A stretch of DNA of 64,000 nucleotides from a virus. The notes under the pieces were generated by a model that did no database searches, was not told the DNA's origin, and was given only the letters and a program-made list of their open reading frames with translations. The stretch spans positions 1 to 64,000 of the IMG/VR virus record IMGVR_UViG_3300043811_000176, one strand, 5' to 3'. Position numbers and translations under genes: made by a program. Positions 1 through 60,879 of this stretch are shown one piece after another. Each line of letters opens with the position of its first letter. The first letter of the stretch is position 1.

Positions 1-235
1 CGCGAGGAGTGTGGCGGAGAACGCAGCGTGGAGCGCGGCGGAGAGCGCGAGGAGTGTGGCGGAGAACGCAGCGAGGAGTGTGGCGGAGAACGTAGCGTGG
101 AGCGCGGCGGAGAGCGCGATGTGGAGCGCGAGGAGCGCGAGGAGCGCGAGGAGCGCGAGGAGCGCGAGGAGCGCGAGGAGCGTGGCGGAGAGCGCGATGT
201 GGAGCGCGAGGAGCGTGGCGGAGAGCGCGGCATGG
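1..235 (+). repeat. GC-rich tandem/degenerate repeat (GAGCGCGAG, GTGGCGGAGA units)
   Basis: Tandem and interleaved copies of GAGCGCGAG (six in a row near 127-180) and GTGGCGGAGA(A/G) fill the left edge. All unit spacings seen keep the reading frame. A slippage-prone array of this kind can change length between isolates, and assembly of the exact copy number is suspect. Confidence 0.85.
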
Positions 236-34459: not shown

Positions 34460-34999
34460 ATGACAAAAAGCAGAGTACACAGACGTACCATAAGCGACGG
34501 ACTGACGCGAAAATTTCTCAATGAAATTCTGCGCTATGATCCATCGACAGGAACGCTTTACAATCGATATCGCCCAGAAAAAAGCAGTTACTGGAACAAA
34601 CGATTCTCCAACAAAAAAACGGGAGGCTTGCACTCCTACGGAGGCATCGGAGTGTGGGTCGATGGAGTCCTGTATCAAGCTCACTGCCTCATATGGATCA
34701 TGATGACAGGCGAACATCCATCGCCGGAAATAGATCACATCGATGGTGATCGCGCGAACAATAGATGGAAAAACCTGCGAATAGTTATGCACGCAGAAAA
34801 CATGAAAAACCAAAAACCAAGAAACGGAAGCCCGCATAAAGGGGCAAAGTGGAACAAGCGTATGGGTCGCTGGCAAGCAGCCATAACGGTAAATTACAAA
34901 CGTCTGCATCTCGGTACCTTTGACACCGCAGAAGAAGCTCATGGCGTATATTGCAAAGCTGCCAAGAAGCTTCACGGTAAATTTGCACGCCTGGAATAG
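34460..34999 (+). CDS. HNH homing endonuclease with AP2-type DNA-binding domain
   Basis: A 179-residue protein. Its HNH core is AHCLIWIMMTGEHP then PEIDHIDGDRANNRWKNLR (H, N, and metal-binding D/H). The C-terminal AP2-like strand set is GAKWNKRMGRWQAAITVNYK and HLGTFDTAEEAH. It is on the opposite strand to all neighbouring virion genes, precisely between two adaptor paralogues, with no disruption of either. This is typical of a free-standing mobile endonuclease gene that copies itself into phages lacking it. Confidence 0.9.
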   Translation: MTKSRVHRRTISDGLTRKFLNEILRYDPSTGTLYNRYRPEKSSYWNKRFSNKKTGGLHSYGGIGVWVDGVLYQAHCLIWIMMTGEHPSPEIDHIDGDRANNRWKNLRIVMHAENMKNQKPRNGSPHKGAKWNKRMGRWQAAITVNYKRLHLGTFDTAEEAHGVYCKAAKKLHGKFARLE

Positions 35000-35001
35000 G
35001 C

Positions 35002-35781
35002 TCACTGCCCGGCTCCAGTATTTTGTTGAATTGATAATTTGTTGATGGTCGTCGGATCAGACTGCCGCTCATATAGATATCGATTGACGCTGGGCGCCGA
35101 AGCCTGATTAGCCCTATCAACAAACATCTTGTAGAGATCAAACATCTTCTGCGCATCCTCGATCCGCGCCGAGGACTGAGCCGACATCAACGCCAGGTAA
35201 GCCGCATAGTACGGCACCGCATCCGTGAACAGATAGGGGATCGCCTCGACGTCGGTGTCCAGCGCCAAGGCGTTCGGGTAGCAGGAACAATCGATCAGGA
35301 GCGAATAGACGAGATCGGGCGGCGGATCGAGATAAAAGCTGCCAGAGTTCATCGACCCCGAGCCTATCCCGGTGATCGAGCCTTGCCCCGACCCGCCTTG
35401 AGCAAATTGCGACCAGCGCTGCGGCGGCCCCGCCACAGGCACCGGGTTGTTCATGTAGTAGAGCCAGAAATAGGCCCAGGCGCGCGGCCGGAACCACTGA
35501 TAGCCCGACGCGACCGCGTAAAGCATCTGCCGGACGTTGATGACCCCAGCGAGGCCCGTCGTAGCGCTCACACCGATATTGATCGACGAGAAGTTGTAGT
35601 TGCGCTGGGCGAGCACGGTCGAGAGCGTGCCCAGATAACGGCAACACTCTGTTTCGGCAGACAACTGCCCGCGCGCCTGATTAATCCAAGCGGTGATGTC
35701 GGGGGTCGCGTAGAGCTGGTTCGCTGCCGCGGCGGGGTACTGCAAGAGCTGTTGGGTGCGCGTCTGGTAGGTCGTGAGCAA
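35002..35781 (-). CDS. Tail adaptor-like protein, paralogue of the 33465 product (259 aa)
   Basis: Starts MLTTYQTRTQQLLQYPAAAA, then ITAWINQARGQLSAETECCR, the same helix pattern (I-N-x-A-R-x-x-x-A-x-x-T-x-C-x-R) as the other adaptor. The C-terminal helix YFTDAVPYYAAYLALMSAQS parallels PWTDAVAYWAASLCYMSLQN. Likely one ring of the portal-tail connector. A gene duplication, or two distinct adaptor rings, is possible. Confidence 0.7.
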   Translation of the reverse strand: MLTTYQTRTQQLLQYPAAAANQLYATPDITAWINQARGQLSAETECCRYLGTLSTVLAQRNYNFSSINIGVSATTGLAGVINVRQMLYAVASGYQWFRPRAWAYFWLYYMNNPVPVAGPPQRWSQFAQGGSGQGSITGIGSGSMNSGSFYLDPPPDLVYSLLIDCSCYPNALALDTDVEAIPYLFTDAVPYYAAYLALMSAQSSARIEDAQKMFDLYKMFVDRANQASAPSVNRYLYERQSDPTTINKLSIQQNTGAGQ

Positions 35782-35805
35782 GGCTCGCCTCCTTGCCCCT
35801 ATATA

Positions 35806-36058: not shown

Positions 36059-37321
36059 CTACGTCTTCAAGGGCTGCATGACCACGAAGTCAGGACGCGA
36101 TCCCATCGTCAAGGTGATCGTGCTGGTGCCGATAACCGACCCCGTCCCAGCCAGCAATATCCCAGCGCCCGCTGCCATGACCGGGGTCGGGACGCCGTAG
36201 AACAGGCCGCCGTCATAAATGATCCCGGTTTGCGCCGCGACCGTGCCAGTGGCGCCAACCGCAAGCACGGCTTGCAGCGGCCGGGGCCGTGCAAACAGGC
36301 CGTAGTTCGCACTGCCGGCGCTCACCGCGCCGCTGACGAGATAAACCGGGGCGTTGGTGATTGTGCCGGTGATCGGCGTCGCCGGCCCTGCGGCCTGCGG
36401 ATAGCCGCCAACGCTGGTCAGAAGCGCCGACACGGTGCCGCTCGTAAGCGTCGAACCGCCGATCACACTGGTGTTGACGACCGTCTGGCACATAATCGCA
36501 GAAATCGTGCCTTGTGTGCCAGCGCCGGAGAGAGTGAGCGTGATGTTGTTTGGAGTCGAGAGCGGAGCGCCAGGATTGGCGCAGAGCACGCCACAGATCG
36601 AACCGGATCCGGTCGTCGAGAACGTGATCGTCGCAAGCGTGATGCCGGTCGCGATATTCGGATCGGTCGGATTCGGAAGACAAGTAACGGTGAAGGTCGT
36701 GCTGCCCTGATAACCGGCACCCGGATTGGTGAACGTGAAGCCGGAAACCGTGCCCGAAGCAATCGTGCAGTAACCGGTCGCCTGGATGCCGCCGACACCG
36801 TTCGCGTTGTTGGAAGGACCGGGGGGAGAGGGGAGAATGGCGATCGGAGCCACACCGTACCCGGCCCCAGCGTTGGCCGTAACGATCGTCGTCGTCGAAA
36901 CAAGAAGCTGCCCGCCGATGATCGGCGTCCACAACGAGCCGCCGCCGCCGGTCACCGCAATCGAAGTCGTCGCCTGCACGTAGCCGCCAGCCCCGTAATT
37001 ATTCACAAGGCCGCCGACCGGGCATCCAGTCAAGTTGGCGATGCGATAGCTGAAGCCGTCGCTCTGGAGATAGATCAACCCGCTGTCCCAAGCCGCGGTG
37101 GAGACAATCGTCCATGTCCCATTGACGGGATCGAGCATCTGAAGGACGCAGTACGAGCCGAGCCCGATCAGCCAGTCGCCGCGAGGGATCGGCAACTGAT
37201 CGCCAGCCGCGAGTCCGACTTGGTTGTTGTTGAAATCGTAGGGCGCGTTAAACAGCTCGCTAGGATACAAATTTTGAGGTAATTGAAGGCCTACAGAAGG
37301 ACCTGAAAGCGGGCCAGGCAT
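36059..37321 (-). CDS. Virion protein with repeated beta modules (420 aa)
   Basis: Begins MPGPLSGPSVGLQLPQNLYP, then a small domain with PIPRGDWLIGLGSYCVLQML. From about residue 110 it is a string of Thr/Ser/Gly beta modules with NAGAGYGVAPIAILP and NPGAGYQGSTTFTVT turns shared with the tail hub and adaptor. Directly downstream of the capsid gene, so a decoration or head fibre protein is likely. ATGs near 37321 give a reasonable start. Confidence 0.6.
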   Translation of the reverse strand: MPGPLSGPSVGLQLPQNLYPSELFNAPYDFNNNQVGLAAGDQLPIPRGDWLIGLGSYCVLQMLDPVNGTWTIVSTAAWDSGLIYLQSDGFSYRIANLTGCPVGGLVNNYGAGGYVQATTSIAVTGGGGSLWTPIIGGQLLVSTTTIVTANAGAGYGVAPIAILPSPPGPSNNANGVGGIQATGYCTIASGTVSGFTFTNPGAGYQGSTTFTVTCLPNPTDPNIATGITLATITFSTTGSGSICGVLCANPGAPLSTPNNITLTLSGAGTQGTISAIMCQTVVNTSVIGGSTLTSGTVSALLTSVGGYPQAAGPATPITGTITNAPVYLVSGAVSAGSANYGLFARPRPLQAVLAVGATGTVAAQTGIIYDGGLFYGVPTPVMAAGAGILLAGTGSVIGTSTITLTMGSRPDFVVMQPLKT

Positions 37322-37334
37322 TTATCAGCTCCTC

Positions 37335-38381
37335 TTAGAAGGCGTTTCCGCCAAAATTGACTGCAATCGCACCCGAAGACGACTTCGCGCTCACAACGTT
37401 GTAGCCAACGACCACGACGCCTTGCTGCCCGATCTGCCCCAAGGGCACGAGCGAGTAGAACCCGCTGAAATCGAACGCAGCGTCTTCGGATAGATACATC
37501 GCCGTGTACTTGACGTTGGGAAAGACGGCCGTTCCCTGCGGAACGAAGTGATCGGCAAAAATCGGGATGCCCGAAACATTCAGGTTCGGGAACGAAGTGC
37601 GTCGGCTGGTGTCGATCGAGTAATTTCCGCCCGGATCCACAAACGCCGTTTCGTTCGACACAAAGTCCTTGTTCAGGGTCGCGAAGTCGCCAGGGTTGAG
37701 AACCCCGTAAGTCGGCGCCTCGCCGCCAGCCGAATCGGTGATATTCGCCAGCATCGTGGCCATCGTCGCGCGGGTAAAGCCCGAGATCGACACCGACGTA
37801 TAAGAAGTGTTCGTAGCCGTATTGATGTACTGGCCTTTGAAAGCCGAGTTGCCCGCTGCGTTGCGCGAGATACCGCCATAGCTTGGAAAATTCGTGCCGC
37901 TGTCGAAAGCGTCGAGGAAGCTGTTGGGGAAGAGCGAATTCGACGAGTTGTTGGTGTAAAGCAGTCGCGCCATGTTCTGGCGCGTCACCGCAAACACATC
38001 ATTCATGCGCGCCTTGAGCAGGCTGATCTCGCGATCGGTCGCCTGGAGCACGGCTTCGCCGAAGGGAAGCGGAACGGGGACAACCCAGTAAGCCAGGTTC
38101 CACTGTCCGTTCTGCACGCCGGGGGTCACGTTGGGAGAGTTGAACCCGCCGCCGTAACCGGTGAATTGGCCTTGGACCATCGACTGTCCCTGCATTGGGA
38201 TAGTGATCTGGTTCAAGCCGCCGGCTGCGCGTTGCGCATTCCCGGTAAGGTAGAACAAAGAGGGACTGCCGAAATAAATCTGGACAAAGAGGCGGGGAAC
38301 GAATGCCCTTCTCGTGGCGGCTGTCAGTTCAGTATAAAGGCTGCCGGCCGGGGGCGCGACACCGATTCCGGGGAGTGGGAT
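37335..38381 (-). CDS. Major capsid protein (apparent ATC start)
   Basis: A 348-residue HK97-type capsid protein in the expected place after the scaffold gene. Arm: GVAPPAGSLYTELTAATRRA, AGGLNQITIPMQGQSMVQGQ, FTGYGGGFN; core: WVVPVPLPFGEAVLQATDRE; end: GVVVVGYNVVSAKSS. The frame is open only back to a TAG at 38391-38393. Just inside it AGGAGG (38387-38392) stands 5 nt before an ATC codon (38379-38381). There is no ATG or GTG before the conserved arm; the next NTG codons are CTG (codon 19) and TTG (codon 42, 38258), both inside the arm. Start therefore placed at ATC; an ATG changed by mutation or assembly error is the alternative. Confidence 0.8.
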   Translation of the reverse strand: MPLPGIGVAPPAGSLYTELTAATRRAFVPRLFVQIYFGSPSLFYLTGNAQRAAGGLNQITIPMQGQSMVQGQFTGYGGGFNSPNVTPGVQNGQWNLAYWVVPVPLPFGEAVLQATDREISLLKARMNDVFAVTRQNMARLLYTNNSSNSLFPNSFLDAFDSGTNFPSYGGISRNAAGNSAFKGQYINTATNTSYTSVSISGFTRATMATMLANITDSAGGEAPTYGVLNPGDFATLNKDFVSNETAFVDPGGNYSIDTSRRTSFPNLNVSGIPIFADHFVPQGTAVFPNVKYTAMYLSEDAAFDFSGFYSLVPLGQIGQQGVVVVGYNVVSAKSSSGAIAVNFGGNAF

Positions 38382-38451
38382 GGCAGCCTCCTATTTAATT
38401 AACTGGTTGTGGGCGGACGATCGCCACCCTCCGATGCCCGGAAGTGGCATG

Positions 38452-39051
38452 TTACCTTACTCCTCGCGAACTGCCTCGGACTTCGTTGATCGCCTCGCCG
38501 GCCATCTTGCGAAGCAAGGGTTCGTTCTCGCCTTTGGTATCGATCAGCTTCTTCCAATCGGCGTCCGTCTCATTGGCGAGCGCCTCGGAGAAATTCCAGC
38601 CGCCGGACCCGGTCGGCATCGCCGGCTCGATCGGCGGCATCTGGCTCTCGATCCATTTGGCGGCGATTGCGACGTCGAGGATTCCCTTTTCCTCCATGAC
38701 CGCCTTGACCTTGGCGATCCCGTCATCAGTCCACCGCTCGCGGCGAAGCTGGGCAAAACCTGCATCCTGCTCCGACCGGATGCGATCGAGCTTCACGTTC
38801 TTCTCGCGATCCGCATTCTCGGCCGCGCGCGCCGCGCGCTCATCGGCGAGGTCTTTTTCGAGCTTGGAAAAGCGATCCTCGGTCGGATCCGGTTTCTCCA
38901 GCTCTTTGACGGCAGGATCTTCCGGACGGACATCCTTGAGCGCTTCAAGCAGCTTGCGCTTCGCGCCCGGCGACCGCGTCATCGCAGTGACGGTCTCGCC
39001 CAGCCGGCGAAGCCGAAGCAATTCCTGCTCGTCGATCTCGACTTGCGGCAT
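38452..39051 (-). CDS. Scaffold-like protein (199 aa)
   Basis: Charged helical coil protein: LLRLRRLGETVTAMTR, then DRFSKLEKDLADERAARAAE, followed by a small C-terminal region GGWNFSEALANETDADWKKL. Directly upstream of the capsid gene, where scaffolds lie in podovirus-like genomes. The terminus is basic (NEVRGSSRGVR). GTG 39054 overlapping the upstream stop is the alternative start. Confidence 0.65.
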   Translation of the reverse strand: MPQVEIDEQELLRLRRLGETVTAMTRSPGAKRKLLEALKDVRPEDPAVKELEKPDPTEDRFSKLEKDLADERAARAAENADREKNVKLDRIRSEQDAGFAQLRRERWTDDGIAKVKAVMEEKGILDVAIAAKWIESQMPPIEPAMPTGSGGWNFSEALANETDADWKKLIDTKGENEPLLRKMAGEAINEVRGSSRGVR

Positions 39052-39230
39052 CACTTCGTCCCGATGCTGGTGCCGCCATTGGGCACATGACTGATCGTCA
39101 AGACGCCGGACTTCTGCTGCGCCGGCAGCGCGCTCTTGCGTCCCTGAAGCTCGATCTCTTCCATTCCGACGCGCACGATCTGCTCGTCGGAAGTCGGAAC
39201 GGATTTCGCCGGGTTGTGGAAGAGGTCCAT
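39051..39230 (-). CDS. Small virion-region protein (59 aa)
   Basis: MDLFHNPAKSVPTSDEQIVR then LQGRKSALPAQQKSG, ends NGGTSIGTK. The opening M-D-L-F-H-N is similar to M-N-L-F-E-N of the 39816-40028 protein. Adjacent to the scaffold, overlapping it at the stop. Function unknown. Confidence 0.55.
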   Translation of the reverse strand: MDLFHNPAKSVPTSDEQIVRVGMEEIELQGRKSALPAQQKSGVLTISHVPNGGTSIGTK

Positions 39231-39242
39231 GAATCGAATCCT

Positions 39243-39803
39243 TTACATCGGGGTCGGCGGCTTTTGCGACGCGGGCGGGGCAGGCGGCGTTTCAGTCTTC
39301 GGGTAAAACGGTTTATCGACTGCTGCCTTGTCGGCTGCTGCCTTGTCGGCTGCTGCCTTGTCGGCTGCTGCCTTGTCGGCTGCTGCCTTGTCGGCTGCTG
39401 CCTTGTCGGCTGCTGCCTTGTCGGCTGCCGCCGAAACCGGCTCGATCGGCTTCGGAACCTTGTAAGGAGCCGCTCCAACCGCGCCCTCGCAAGCGCGGAC
39501 TCGCCCTTCCAGTTCGACCAACTTCTCGGCATGCTCGTGCGGCAACTTGGTCGCATCGTTGACCGACCGGCGAAACTCGACGCCGTCAGTCGTCAGCGCC
39601 GCAACATTACCCTCGACAGTCGTGAGCCGGTCGGCATTAATTCGCGCCTGCGAAAGCGCCTTGAGATGCGAATACTCCGCATGACTCATTCGATTGCGAA
39701 GATCTTCAAGCCCGGCAGCCAGGACGCGCGAATCCAGCTCGTGCACATCAACGCCAGGATCTTTCAATTTCGCAATCAAGGTATCGAGATCGGTGACGGG
39801 CAT
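39243..39803 (-). CDS. Coiled protein with tandem AADKA repeats (186 aa)
   Basis: N-terminal two thirds are helical coil (MPVTDLDTLIAKLKDPGVDV; LKALSQARINADRL; HAEKLVELEGRVRACEG). The C-terminal region is seven perfect AADKA repeats, then KTETPPAPPASQKPPTPM. The Lys/Ala repeats with a Pro tail resemble linker regions in head-associated proteins. Between portal-proximal and scaffold genes, so head assembly is likely. Confidence 0.6.
   Translation of the reverse strand: MPVTDLDTLIAKLKDPGVDVHELDSRVLAAGLEDLRNRMSHAEYSHLKALSQARINADRLTTVEGNVAALTTDGVEFRRSVNDATKLPHEHAEKLVELEGRVRACEGAVGAAPYKVPKPIEPVSAAADKAAADKAAADKAAADKAAADKAAADKAAADKAAVDKPFYPKTETPPAPPASQKPPTPM
39321..39425 (-). repeat. Seven perfect 15-bp tandem repeats
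   Basis: The plus-strand unit TGCTGCCTTGTCGGC is repeated seven times without a mismatch, in frame in the coiled protein gene. Perfect repeats of this length recombine or slip readily, so copy number may vary. Confidence 0.97.
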
Positions 39804-54054: not shown

Positions 54055-54581
54055 GCCGCGAACTCCCCATAAATCTCTCGCATAGCTTTTTCTCGGGCCG
54101 CATTTGCCTCTTCGGGGCTATCAAAAATACCGATGTATCTCGTCCCCTTACCACCGGCTTGCGCGACCCACTTATTCTTATTTTTGTGCTTGTGAACGCC
54201 GTAAAAACCGCTCGGCGGTAACGCACGTTCGCGATTAGCGCCATTCTGCGCTGGTGTCGCTGCACGCAGATTACTCCAACGATTGTTTCCTTTATCGCGA
54301 TCCGAATGATCTATAATCCGCGGCGGTTCCTCACCAGTTATCATTTTCCAAATGACACGATGCGCCGCACAGTACATATTGTCCAGATGCCCCGCTCGGT
54401 AACCCTTGGAGCTAACGCTGAAAGCCTCACACCCGGCAAACCGAGTGTTCCACATCTGCGCTACTTCGCTGCTTGGAAAATGTTCCGCCGGCCGATATTT
54501 CCAATATAGCTTTCCTGTCTCTCGCTCGTACAAGAAGCATTCCATTAGATAGTGAAGTGATGGAAGCTTTCGCAACTTCAT
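54051..54581 (-). CDS. HNH homing endonuclease with AP2-type domain (176 aa)
   Basis: Core HRVIWKMITGEEPPRIIDHS then DRDKGNNRWSNLRAATPAQN (H and N of HNH), with C-terminal AP2-like GVHKHKNKNKWVAQAGGKGT and YIGIFDSPEEANAAREKAMR. It lies exactly between, and overlaps by 4 nt, two glycosyltransferase genes on the same strand. Coupled insertion without disruption suggests a stable mobile gene. Confidence 0.9.
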   Translation of the reverse strand: MKLRKLPSLHYLMECFLYERETGKLYWKYRPAEHFPSSEVAQMWNTRFAGCEAFSVSSKGYRAGHLDNMYCAAHRVIWKMITGEEPPRIIDHSDRDKGNNRWSNLRAATPAQNGANRERALPPSGFYGVHKHKNKNKWVAQAGGKGTRYIGIFDSPEEANAAREKAMREIYGEFAA

Positions 54582-56292: not shown

Positions 56293-56321
56293 TTGACAAT
56301 GTTCTCAAGGAGTTATATATA
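56293..56321 (+). promoter_or_regulatory. Sigma-70-like promoter
   Basis: TTGACA (56293-56298), 17-nt spacer, TATATA (56316-56321) on the plus strand, close to consensus. No convincing plus-strand gene lies just downstream, so it may serve a small RNA or antisense transcript through the 56488 gene. The AT-rich segment could equally hold a minus-strand promoter for the late region. Confidence 0.5.
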
Positions 56322-56487
56322 GGATGGGCGTTGGGGGTCGTCACCGCGCCAACGGCGACGCCCCTTCGGCGCAGACTTCTATGGCATGTACCACCTCGGT
56401 TCTGGGCTCCATTGCCCGCTGACGTGTCACTGCTTGCTGACTTCCTAGGTTGGCTAGACCTAGGTATTTCGATTCACCAAAGGGCTT

Positions 56488-56754
56488 TCACCCTTCGGTG
56501 GTGGCTTTTGAAACGCCTTCCGAGGGAAACCCGGAGGGCGTTTCATCTTTGCGGACAAGGCGGATTTTTCCTTTGCCCGCTTTTTTCACTTTTCCACCTT
56601 TCACAAGGCGGCGAACCATCGTGTAGTAGTAGGCACCATTATTCTTATCGAGCATTGCCTGGAACTTGGGGACAGCACGAAGCGCCTTCTGCAGCTCATG
56701 GTGCCGAACAGCCCCATGAAAACCGCCGAGAATGCGGATTGATGCGTCCCCCAT
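56488..56754 (-). CDS. Winged-helix-like DNA-binding protein (88 aa)
   Basis: ATG 56754. SIRILGGFHGAVRHHELQKA (helix, turn, helix) then KNNGAYYYTMVRRLVKGGKV (recognition helix and wing) and a basic tail. A regulator-type small protein just upstream of the late-region terminator. A TTG start would extend it to 56826 but adds a poorly conserved-looking stretch. The 3' end contains a 13-bp hairpin (56509-56543). Confidence 0.55.
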   Translation of the reverse strand: MGDASIRILGGFHGAVRHHELQKALRAVPKFQAMLDKNNGAYYYTMVRRLVKGGKVKKAGKGKIRLVRKDETPSGFPSEGVSKATTEG

Positions 56755-57016
56755 GCTTTCACCGAGCGTATGGAAAGGGCCGGGCTTGGCATCCCGGCCC
56801 TTCAACCCTTGGCCCACCACAGGCAAGAGGAGGTTCGGACGATGACGGCCAAAGCCTAGTCAGGGGCTCTTAAAGCCCCTCGCAGGGCCTTTTTGAGCAC
56901 CATTCCGGGTCCGGCCGAACTCCGGCCCGGGATGGCCCCTTGTAGCATATTAATTTGGGGTCAGCAAATGAACGACCAGCGGGCCGCCCGGCCCGTATGA
57001 CGCCGCGATAGACGCA

Positions 57017-60210: not shown

Positions 60211-60879
60211 ATGACACGTGACGAAATCTTGTTAGCTATTAAAAACGGCAATTCTCTCGCCCGCGCCAATCTCGCCGGCGCCAATCTCGCCCGCGCCGAT
60301 CTCACCGGCGCCAATCTCGCCGGCGCCTATCTCGCCCGCGCCAATCTCGCCCGCGCCGATCTCACCGGCGCCAATCTCGCCGGCGCCAATCTCGCCCGCG
60401 CCGATCTCGCCGGCGCCGATCTCGCCGGCGCCGATCTCGCCGGCGCCGATCTCGCCCACGCCGATCTCGCCGGCGCCGATCTCGGCAGCGCCTATCTCGC
60501 CCGCGCCAATCTCGCCTTCGCCAATCTCGCCCACGCCGATCTCGCCGGCGCCAATCTCGCCCACGCCGATCTCGCCGGCGCCGATCTCGACGGCGCCGAT
60601 CTCGCCGGCGCCAATCTCGCCGGCGCCAATCTCGCCTGCGCCAATCTTGGCGAGCAATGGATCATACAAGGCGCAACCCGATCGGACGGTTACCAATTCC
60701 TGTTGCAAAAACTCACAGCGAACACAGAACCGATGATAAATGCGGGGTGCCGTTGCTTCACGCTGCCAAGAGCGCGCGAGCACTGGCAAGAAACACGCGC
60801 GGGAACGCCGCTGGGCGACGAAACCTTTGCAATCATTGATTGCATGGTCGCCTTGGCGAAGGCGCGCGGGTTGATCTGA
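60211..60879 (+). CDS. Pentapeptide-repeat protein (222 aa)
   Basis: Strong AGGAGG before ATG 60211. About 26 consecutive A-(N/D)-L-(A/T)-x pentapeptides from residue 15 to about 147 form a right-handed quadrilateral beta-helix. The C-terminal domain is [20 protein letters not shown], then [20 protein letters not shown] and VALAKARG. Such folds can mimic DNA (for example gyrase-protecting Qnr proteins). In a phage, a gyrase- or host-protein-binding role is possible but unproven. Lies next to the candidate origin. Confidence 0.85.

Follow-up and report, generated by a model that had tools for sequence, protein, structure and literature searches.

An apparent AUC start codon behind a perfect Shine-Dalgarno sequence in the major capsid gene of a soil virus

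The window analysed here is the whole 64,000-nt stretch of IMG/VR record IMGVR_UViG_3300043811_000176, the source of which is a soil virus. The features around the 5′ end of its major capsid protein (MCP) gene are as follows.

36059..37321, minus strand: next gene, 420 aa, used below as a start-codon control
37335..38381, minus strand: MCP gene, HK97-type, 348 codons plus stop (ORF, homology and Foldseek matches)
38379..38381, minus strand: AUC start codon of the MCP gene (ATG, TTG, GTG, ATC or ATT in aligned relatives)
38387..38392, minus strand: AGGAGG Shine-Dalgarno (SD) sequence, 5 nt before the AUC
38391..38393, minus strand: in-frame TAG, 9 nt before the AUC
38391..38450, minus strand: 19-codon mini-ORF MPLPGIGGWRSSAHNQLIK, in the MCP frame, its TAG overlapping the SD
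38452..39054, minus strand: scaffold-like gene upstream of MCP, 200 aa from GTG, function by position only

Read from the ATC, the MCP frame runs for 348 codons with no internal stop and no other lesion. Its product showed no match to PHROGs, Pfam or PDB sequences, but it is 34-35% identical to annotated major capsid proteins in two phage records (34.9% in one). Its AlphaFold model is of low confidence (pLDDT 48), and the top Foldseek matches of this model are nearly all HK97-type shells (HK97, SU10 and A-1(L)) together with encapsulins. In addition, a terminase homologue lies upstream of the gene and a tape-measure homologue downstream. The identity, the HK97-type matches of the low-confidence model and the head-gene neighbours together bear out the label of major capsid gene in the original prediction, and we consider this assignment sound; the product is presumably the most abundant protein of the phage. 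A family search with the product of the scaffold-like gene gave no match, and the protein encoded upstream of that gene carries ADKAA repeats specified by a 15-bp tandem repeat (39316-39432; 7.8 copies, 98% matches). Another 15-bp tandem repeat, with 26 copies, occupies 60255-60647, and GC-rich tandem repeats lie at the start of the window (1-215). Searches for tRNAs and against Rfam found none, and no IF3 domain was matched in this virus record. The single matching bacterial genome record was a contig assigned to a Verrucomicrobia MAG.

The minus-strand leader reads ...TTAATTAAATAGGAGGCTGCC-ATC-CCACTCCCCGGAATCGG, or in longer form ...CCAGTTAATTAAATAGGAGGCTGCC ATC CCACTCCCCGGAATCGGT..., and the N-terminal peptide read from the ATC is PLPGIGVAPPAGSLYTELTAATR. 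The spacer between AGGAGG and ATC is CTGCC, and the codons GAG GCT GCC separate the TAG from the ATC. The original prediction had described the AGGAGG, the 5-nt gap, the ATC and the in-frame TAG from the sequence, and every coordinate was confirmed on the minus strand. The in-frame NTG codons that it had listed downstream, CTG at codon 19 and TTG at codon 42 (38258-38256), are also present, with TTG 56 and ATG 63 further in; for gene callers allowing ATG, GTG and TTG, the first ORF in the MCP frame opens at codon 42. AUC is almost never used as a start codon in bacteria, and the prediction had left a choice between a genuine AUC start and an altered ATG.

The MCP N-terminus x-P-L-P-G-I/L-G of 80 relatives aligns exactly at the ATC codon, in agreement with the claim that the conserved capsid arm begins right after it. 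Translation from an internal NTG, of which TTG 42 and ATG 63 are the first in frame besides CTG, would lose this conserved N-terminus with its many invariant residues (E18, L19, R24 and R25) and would leave a perfect SD without a gene, and we regard it as highly implausible. Among 104 distinct MCP starts, comprising aligned relatives and pattern matches with duplicates removed, the codon at this position was ATG in 53, TTG in 24, GTG in 21, ATC in three and ATT in three, and nothing else. To check whether related capsid genes carry ATG here had been proposed with the original prediction: 53 do, and a further 45 have the GTG or TTG starts that the prediction had missed. The ATC starts are those of the window, of L022/L024 (a pair of records with the same sequence over 10,391 nt, counted as one case) and of L088, and the ATT starts are those of L026, L078 and L086. 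In all six, an SD is suitably spaced from the start, the frame is closed by a stop 12-87 nt upstream, and no NTG nearby is usable; a GTG at -5 in L022 and L088 was rejected as the true start, being out of frame and too near the SD. Targeted scans for MCPs starting with CTG or ACG matched only unrelated genes, and a scan for ATH starts found no ATA, its match in L085 being a chance match and not an MCP start. In a homologous freshwater MCP family taken as the outgroup, 45 of 45 starts were ATG, and the gene next to MCP in the same clade started with ATG in 56 cases and GTG in six. A scan of the window for further SDs followed by non-NTG starts revealed no other clear example within the structural region. 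At 56308-56873 on the plus strand, AAGGAG is followed about 5-6 nt on by ATA and a 184-codon open frame, which may start at this ATA or at a later TTG.

The phylogeny of the MCPs was built with 90 tips from codon 61 onward, leaving out the first 60 codons. It carries 32 start-codon changes and implies three independent origins of ATC and two of ATT, all forced by supported branches; the ATT locus L086 was too short to be placed on the tree, and the sequences flanking it are closest to those of TTG loci.

The start codon was closely associated with the strength of the SD. AGGAGG within 20 nt upstream of the start was present in 0/53 ATG, 7/21 GTG, 22/24 TTG and 4/6 AUC/AUU genes (ATG versus TTG, p=3e-17; ATG versus AUC/AUU, p=3e-5). 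Mean predicted SD pairing energies were -7.2, -9.4, -10.4, -10.8 and -9.6 kcal/mol for ATG, GTG, TTG, ATT and ATC starts, respectively (SD energy, p=9e-5). A stronger SD accompanied a weaker codon repeatedly in independent lineages: in a tree-corrected test, 6.5 independent pairs agreed and none disagreed (median p 0.03), so that the association is not due only to shared descent, the corrected test being modest in strength. Two findings count against the reading favoured below, namely that two of the six AUC/AUU leaders have TAAGGAG instead of AGGAGG, and that position -1 is a C in all six (post hoc p=2.5e-4). Predicted folding of the ribosome-binding sites did not set the AUC/AUU leaders apart from the others.

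The ATC of this one contig could stem from an ATG altered by a recent inactivating point mutation or by an error of sequencing or assembly. ATG is indeed the commonest aligned codon, and the window's own ATC rests on one assembly, no second contig of its population or its leader having been found. However, distinct AUC/AUU starts occur in six cases in separate lineages, one of them in two identical records, and the ORF is of full length and otherwise intact. Moreover, the AUC/AUU leaders resemble those of weak starts rather than those of ATG genes, whereas an ATG gene hit by an error would keep an ATG-type leader; the perfect SD therefore argues against it. Error is thus unlikely as a general explanation, and for the window itself we consider it improbable. 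Between the two options of the original prediction, the comparison favours a real AUC start, and the AUC/AUU capsid starts appear from their distribution among relatives to be a natural, recurrent trait and not a sequencing mistake.

Near-cognate starts were also seen outside the capsid gene. In L153 and L009, the orthologue of window 35002-35781, a 259-aa gene, has an apparent ATT or ACG start, respectively, behind GGAGG, with no in-frame NTG from the upstream stop to the conserved start, hinting that such starts reach beyond the capsid gene. Both of these genes and the MCP genes of L022 and L088 share the hexamer CGTG[CT]C directly in front of the near-cognate start. In the leader of the 259-aa gene (window 35002-35800, minus strand), many relatives (such as L018, L036, L037, L058 and L127) have a hairpin next to the start codon, with GGCAGA-GGAG-TCTGCC, GGCAAA/TTTGCC or GGTACA/TGTGCC stems and the SD in or beside the loop. 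This resembles a conserved, structured ribosome site, of which the window has a weak copy.

The mini-ORF had been missed by the original prediction. Its ATG (38450) lies 69 nt upstream of the AUC in the same frame, behind an SD-like GAGGAG, and the ORF repeats MPLPGIG and terminates at the TAG (38393-38391) within the SD of the MCP gene. This arrangement invites the reading that the AUC works only by coupling, with ribosomes starting at ATG 38450, stopping at the TAG and reinitiating 9 nt downstream. Nevertheless, a second, vestigial MCP start was sought in all relatives and found only in the window, yet five other lineages use AUC or AUU. In addition, 19 nt of the mini-ORF (38449-38431) recur without a mismatch at the true MCP start of L003. 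Obligatory coupling is thus a possibility that we hold to be doubtful, and the mini-ORF is most likely, judged from this identity, a relic of an older MCP start overtaken by a new SD-AUC cassette. It may serve as a coupling leader as well, because its stop overlaps the SD. Since ATG 38450 is in the MCP frame and a single stop intervenes, read-through of the TAG to give an extended MCP could also be imagined. An MCP extended in this way is seen in none of the relatives, conservation begins right after the aligned start codon and the TAG sits within the perfect SD, and read-through is accordingly most improbable.

Pairs of MCP genes whose bodies are 93-100% alike differ strongly over the first ~120 nt and in the SD and start codon (L034 TTG and L032 ATG; L011 GTG and L013 ATG; L003 TTG and L012 ATG; L078 ATT and L154 ATG). 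In pairs picked on the 3′ third of MCP only, divergence at fourfold sites was 0.51-0.52 over codons 1-40, 0.31 over codons 41-60 and ~0.1-0.2 beyond. Genes for HNH homing endonucleases lie immediately upstream of MCP, in both orientations, at 21 of 104 assessed loci and are absent from the others. The simplest reading of these patterns is that the 5′ end of MCP has been repeatedly replaced by recombination, partly perhaps by co-conversion with endonucleases, for whose role in the swapping the case is circumstantial. A more specific scenario can be offered tentatively, in which homing endonucleases target the 5′ end of MCP and phages escape or repair with recoded 5′ ends, while a set initiation rate fixes the pairs of start codon and SD, so that AUC and AUU would be tolerated or act as an IF3-sensitive brake. 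Where the HNH genes are reversed (L011, L044, L067, L068, L070 and L093), a TTGAC[AT]-containing end common to these loci lies beside the capsid leader and, read by eye, may be a promoter for the endonuclease. The window itself contains two HNH_3 domains, one at 34673-34804 (plus strand), on the opposite strand inside the structural region, and one at 54240-54368 (minus strand).

We consider it likely that MCP translation starts at the AUC (38381-38379), a near-cognate codon offset by a perfect SD, and that swaps of the 5′ end together with selection match the SD to the codon. This reading is supported by the observed position of the codon, its recurrence, the association of SD and start codon, and the hotspot of 5′ replacement; from these we infer initiation at the AUC, its rate, the coupling and the selective cause. 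The initiator fMet-tRNA (anticodon CAU) would read AUC as a near-cognate with a third-position mismatch, and AGGAGG at 5-nt spacing would retain the 30S subunit there, making up for the weak codon, probably helped by ribosomes ending 9 nt upstream at the TAG of the mini-ORF. The Met inserted at the AUC would probably be removed, Pro being second, leaving the same mature protein. Start codon and SD would move together as the 5′ end is swapped by recombination, partly beside homing-endonuclease insertions, and selection would hold initiation strength within a range, so that a moderate SD would accompany AUG and a strong SD would accompany UUG, AUU or AUC. Near-cognate starts are weak, which is odd for a protein made in hundreds of copies and counts against this reading; a strong SD and nearby termination could nevertheless allow useful capsid output from an abundant late mRNA.

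Among host genes, further near-cognate starts are the AUA codons of some infC genes and the AUU of E. coli pcnB. The fMet-tRNA can initiate on AUU, AUC and AUA with IF3 opposing it, and the start codon of infC is AUU in E. coli, while Streptomyces uses AUC (PMC5472188). In infC and E. coli pcnB, the initiator tRNA reads a near-cognate AUN behind a good SD, as it would in MCP. However, they are low-output regulated host genes, whereas MCP is a phage structural gene from which bulk output is expected, and its start codon shifts fast among relatives, unlike theirs. Moreover, the infC codon serves IF3 autoregulation, while the virus record has no IF3 match. In S. aureus, cvfC1 (AUU) and ccpN (AUA) likewise combine a non-canonical start with an unusually strong, extended SD and give ~10-30% of AUG output (PMC13009471); there the codon is conserved and the genes are regulators, and in MCP, a capsid gene, it recurs and switches among relatives. 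Compensation of weaker starts by stronger SDs is known for GUG and UUG, strong SDs occurring in roughly 63, 67 and 71% of AUG, GUG and UUG genes by the counts of Belinky et al. 2017 (PMC5622118). In contrast to this mild trend, AGGAGG in the MCP leaders is nearly all-or-none and its use extends to AUC and AUU. The upstream HNH genes resemble the free-standing HNH homing endonucleases found between phage late genes, but, unlike these in general, their position coincides with the swapped SD and start codon of a neighbouring gene, homing being putative.

AUC and AUU starts are known from a few low-output regulated genes, and here they recur in a phage major capsid gene. Gene callers restricted to ATG, GTG and TTG would truncate or mis-start such capsids. 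Moreover, one gene with five start codons and matched SDs provides a natural series in which the determinants of initiation strength can be measured.
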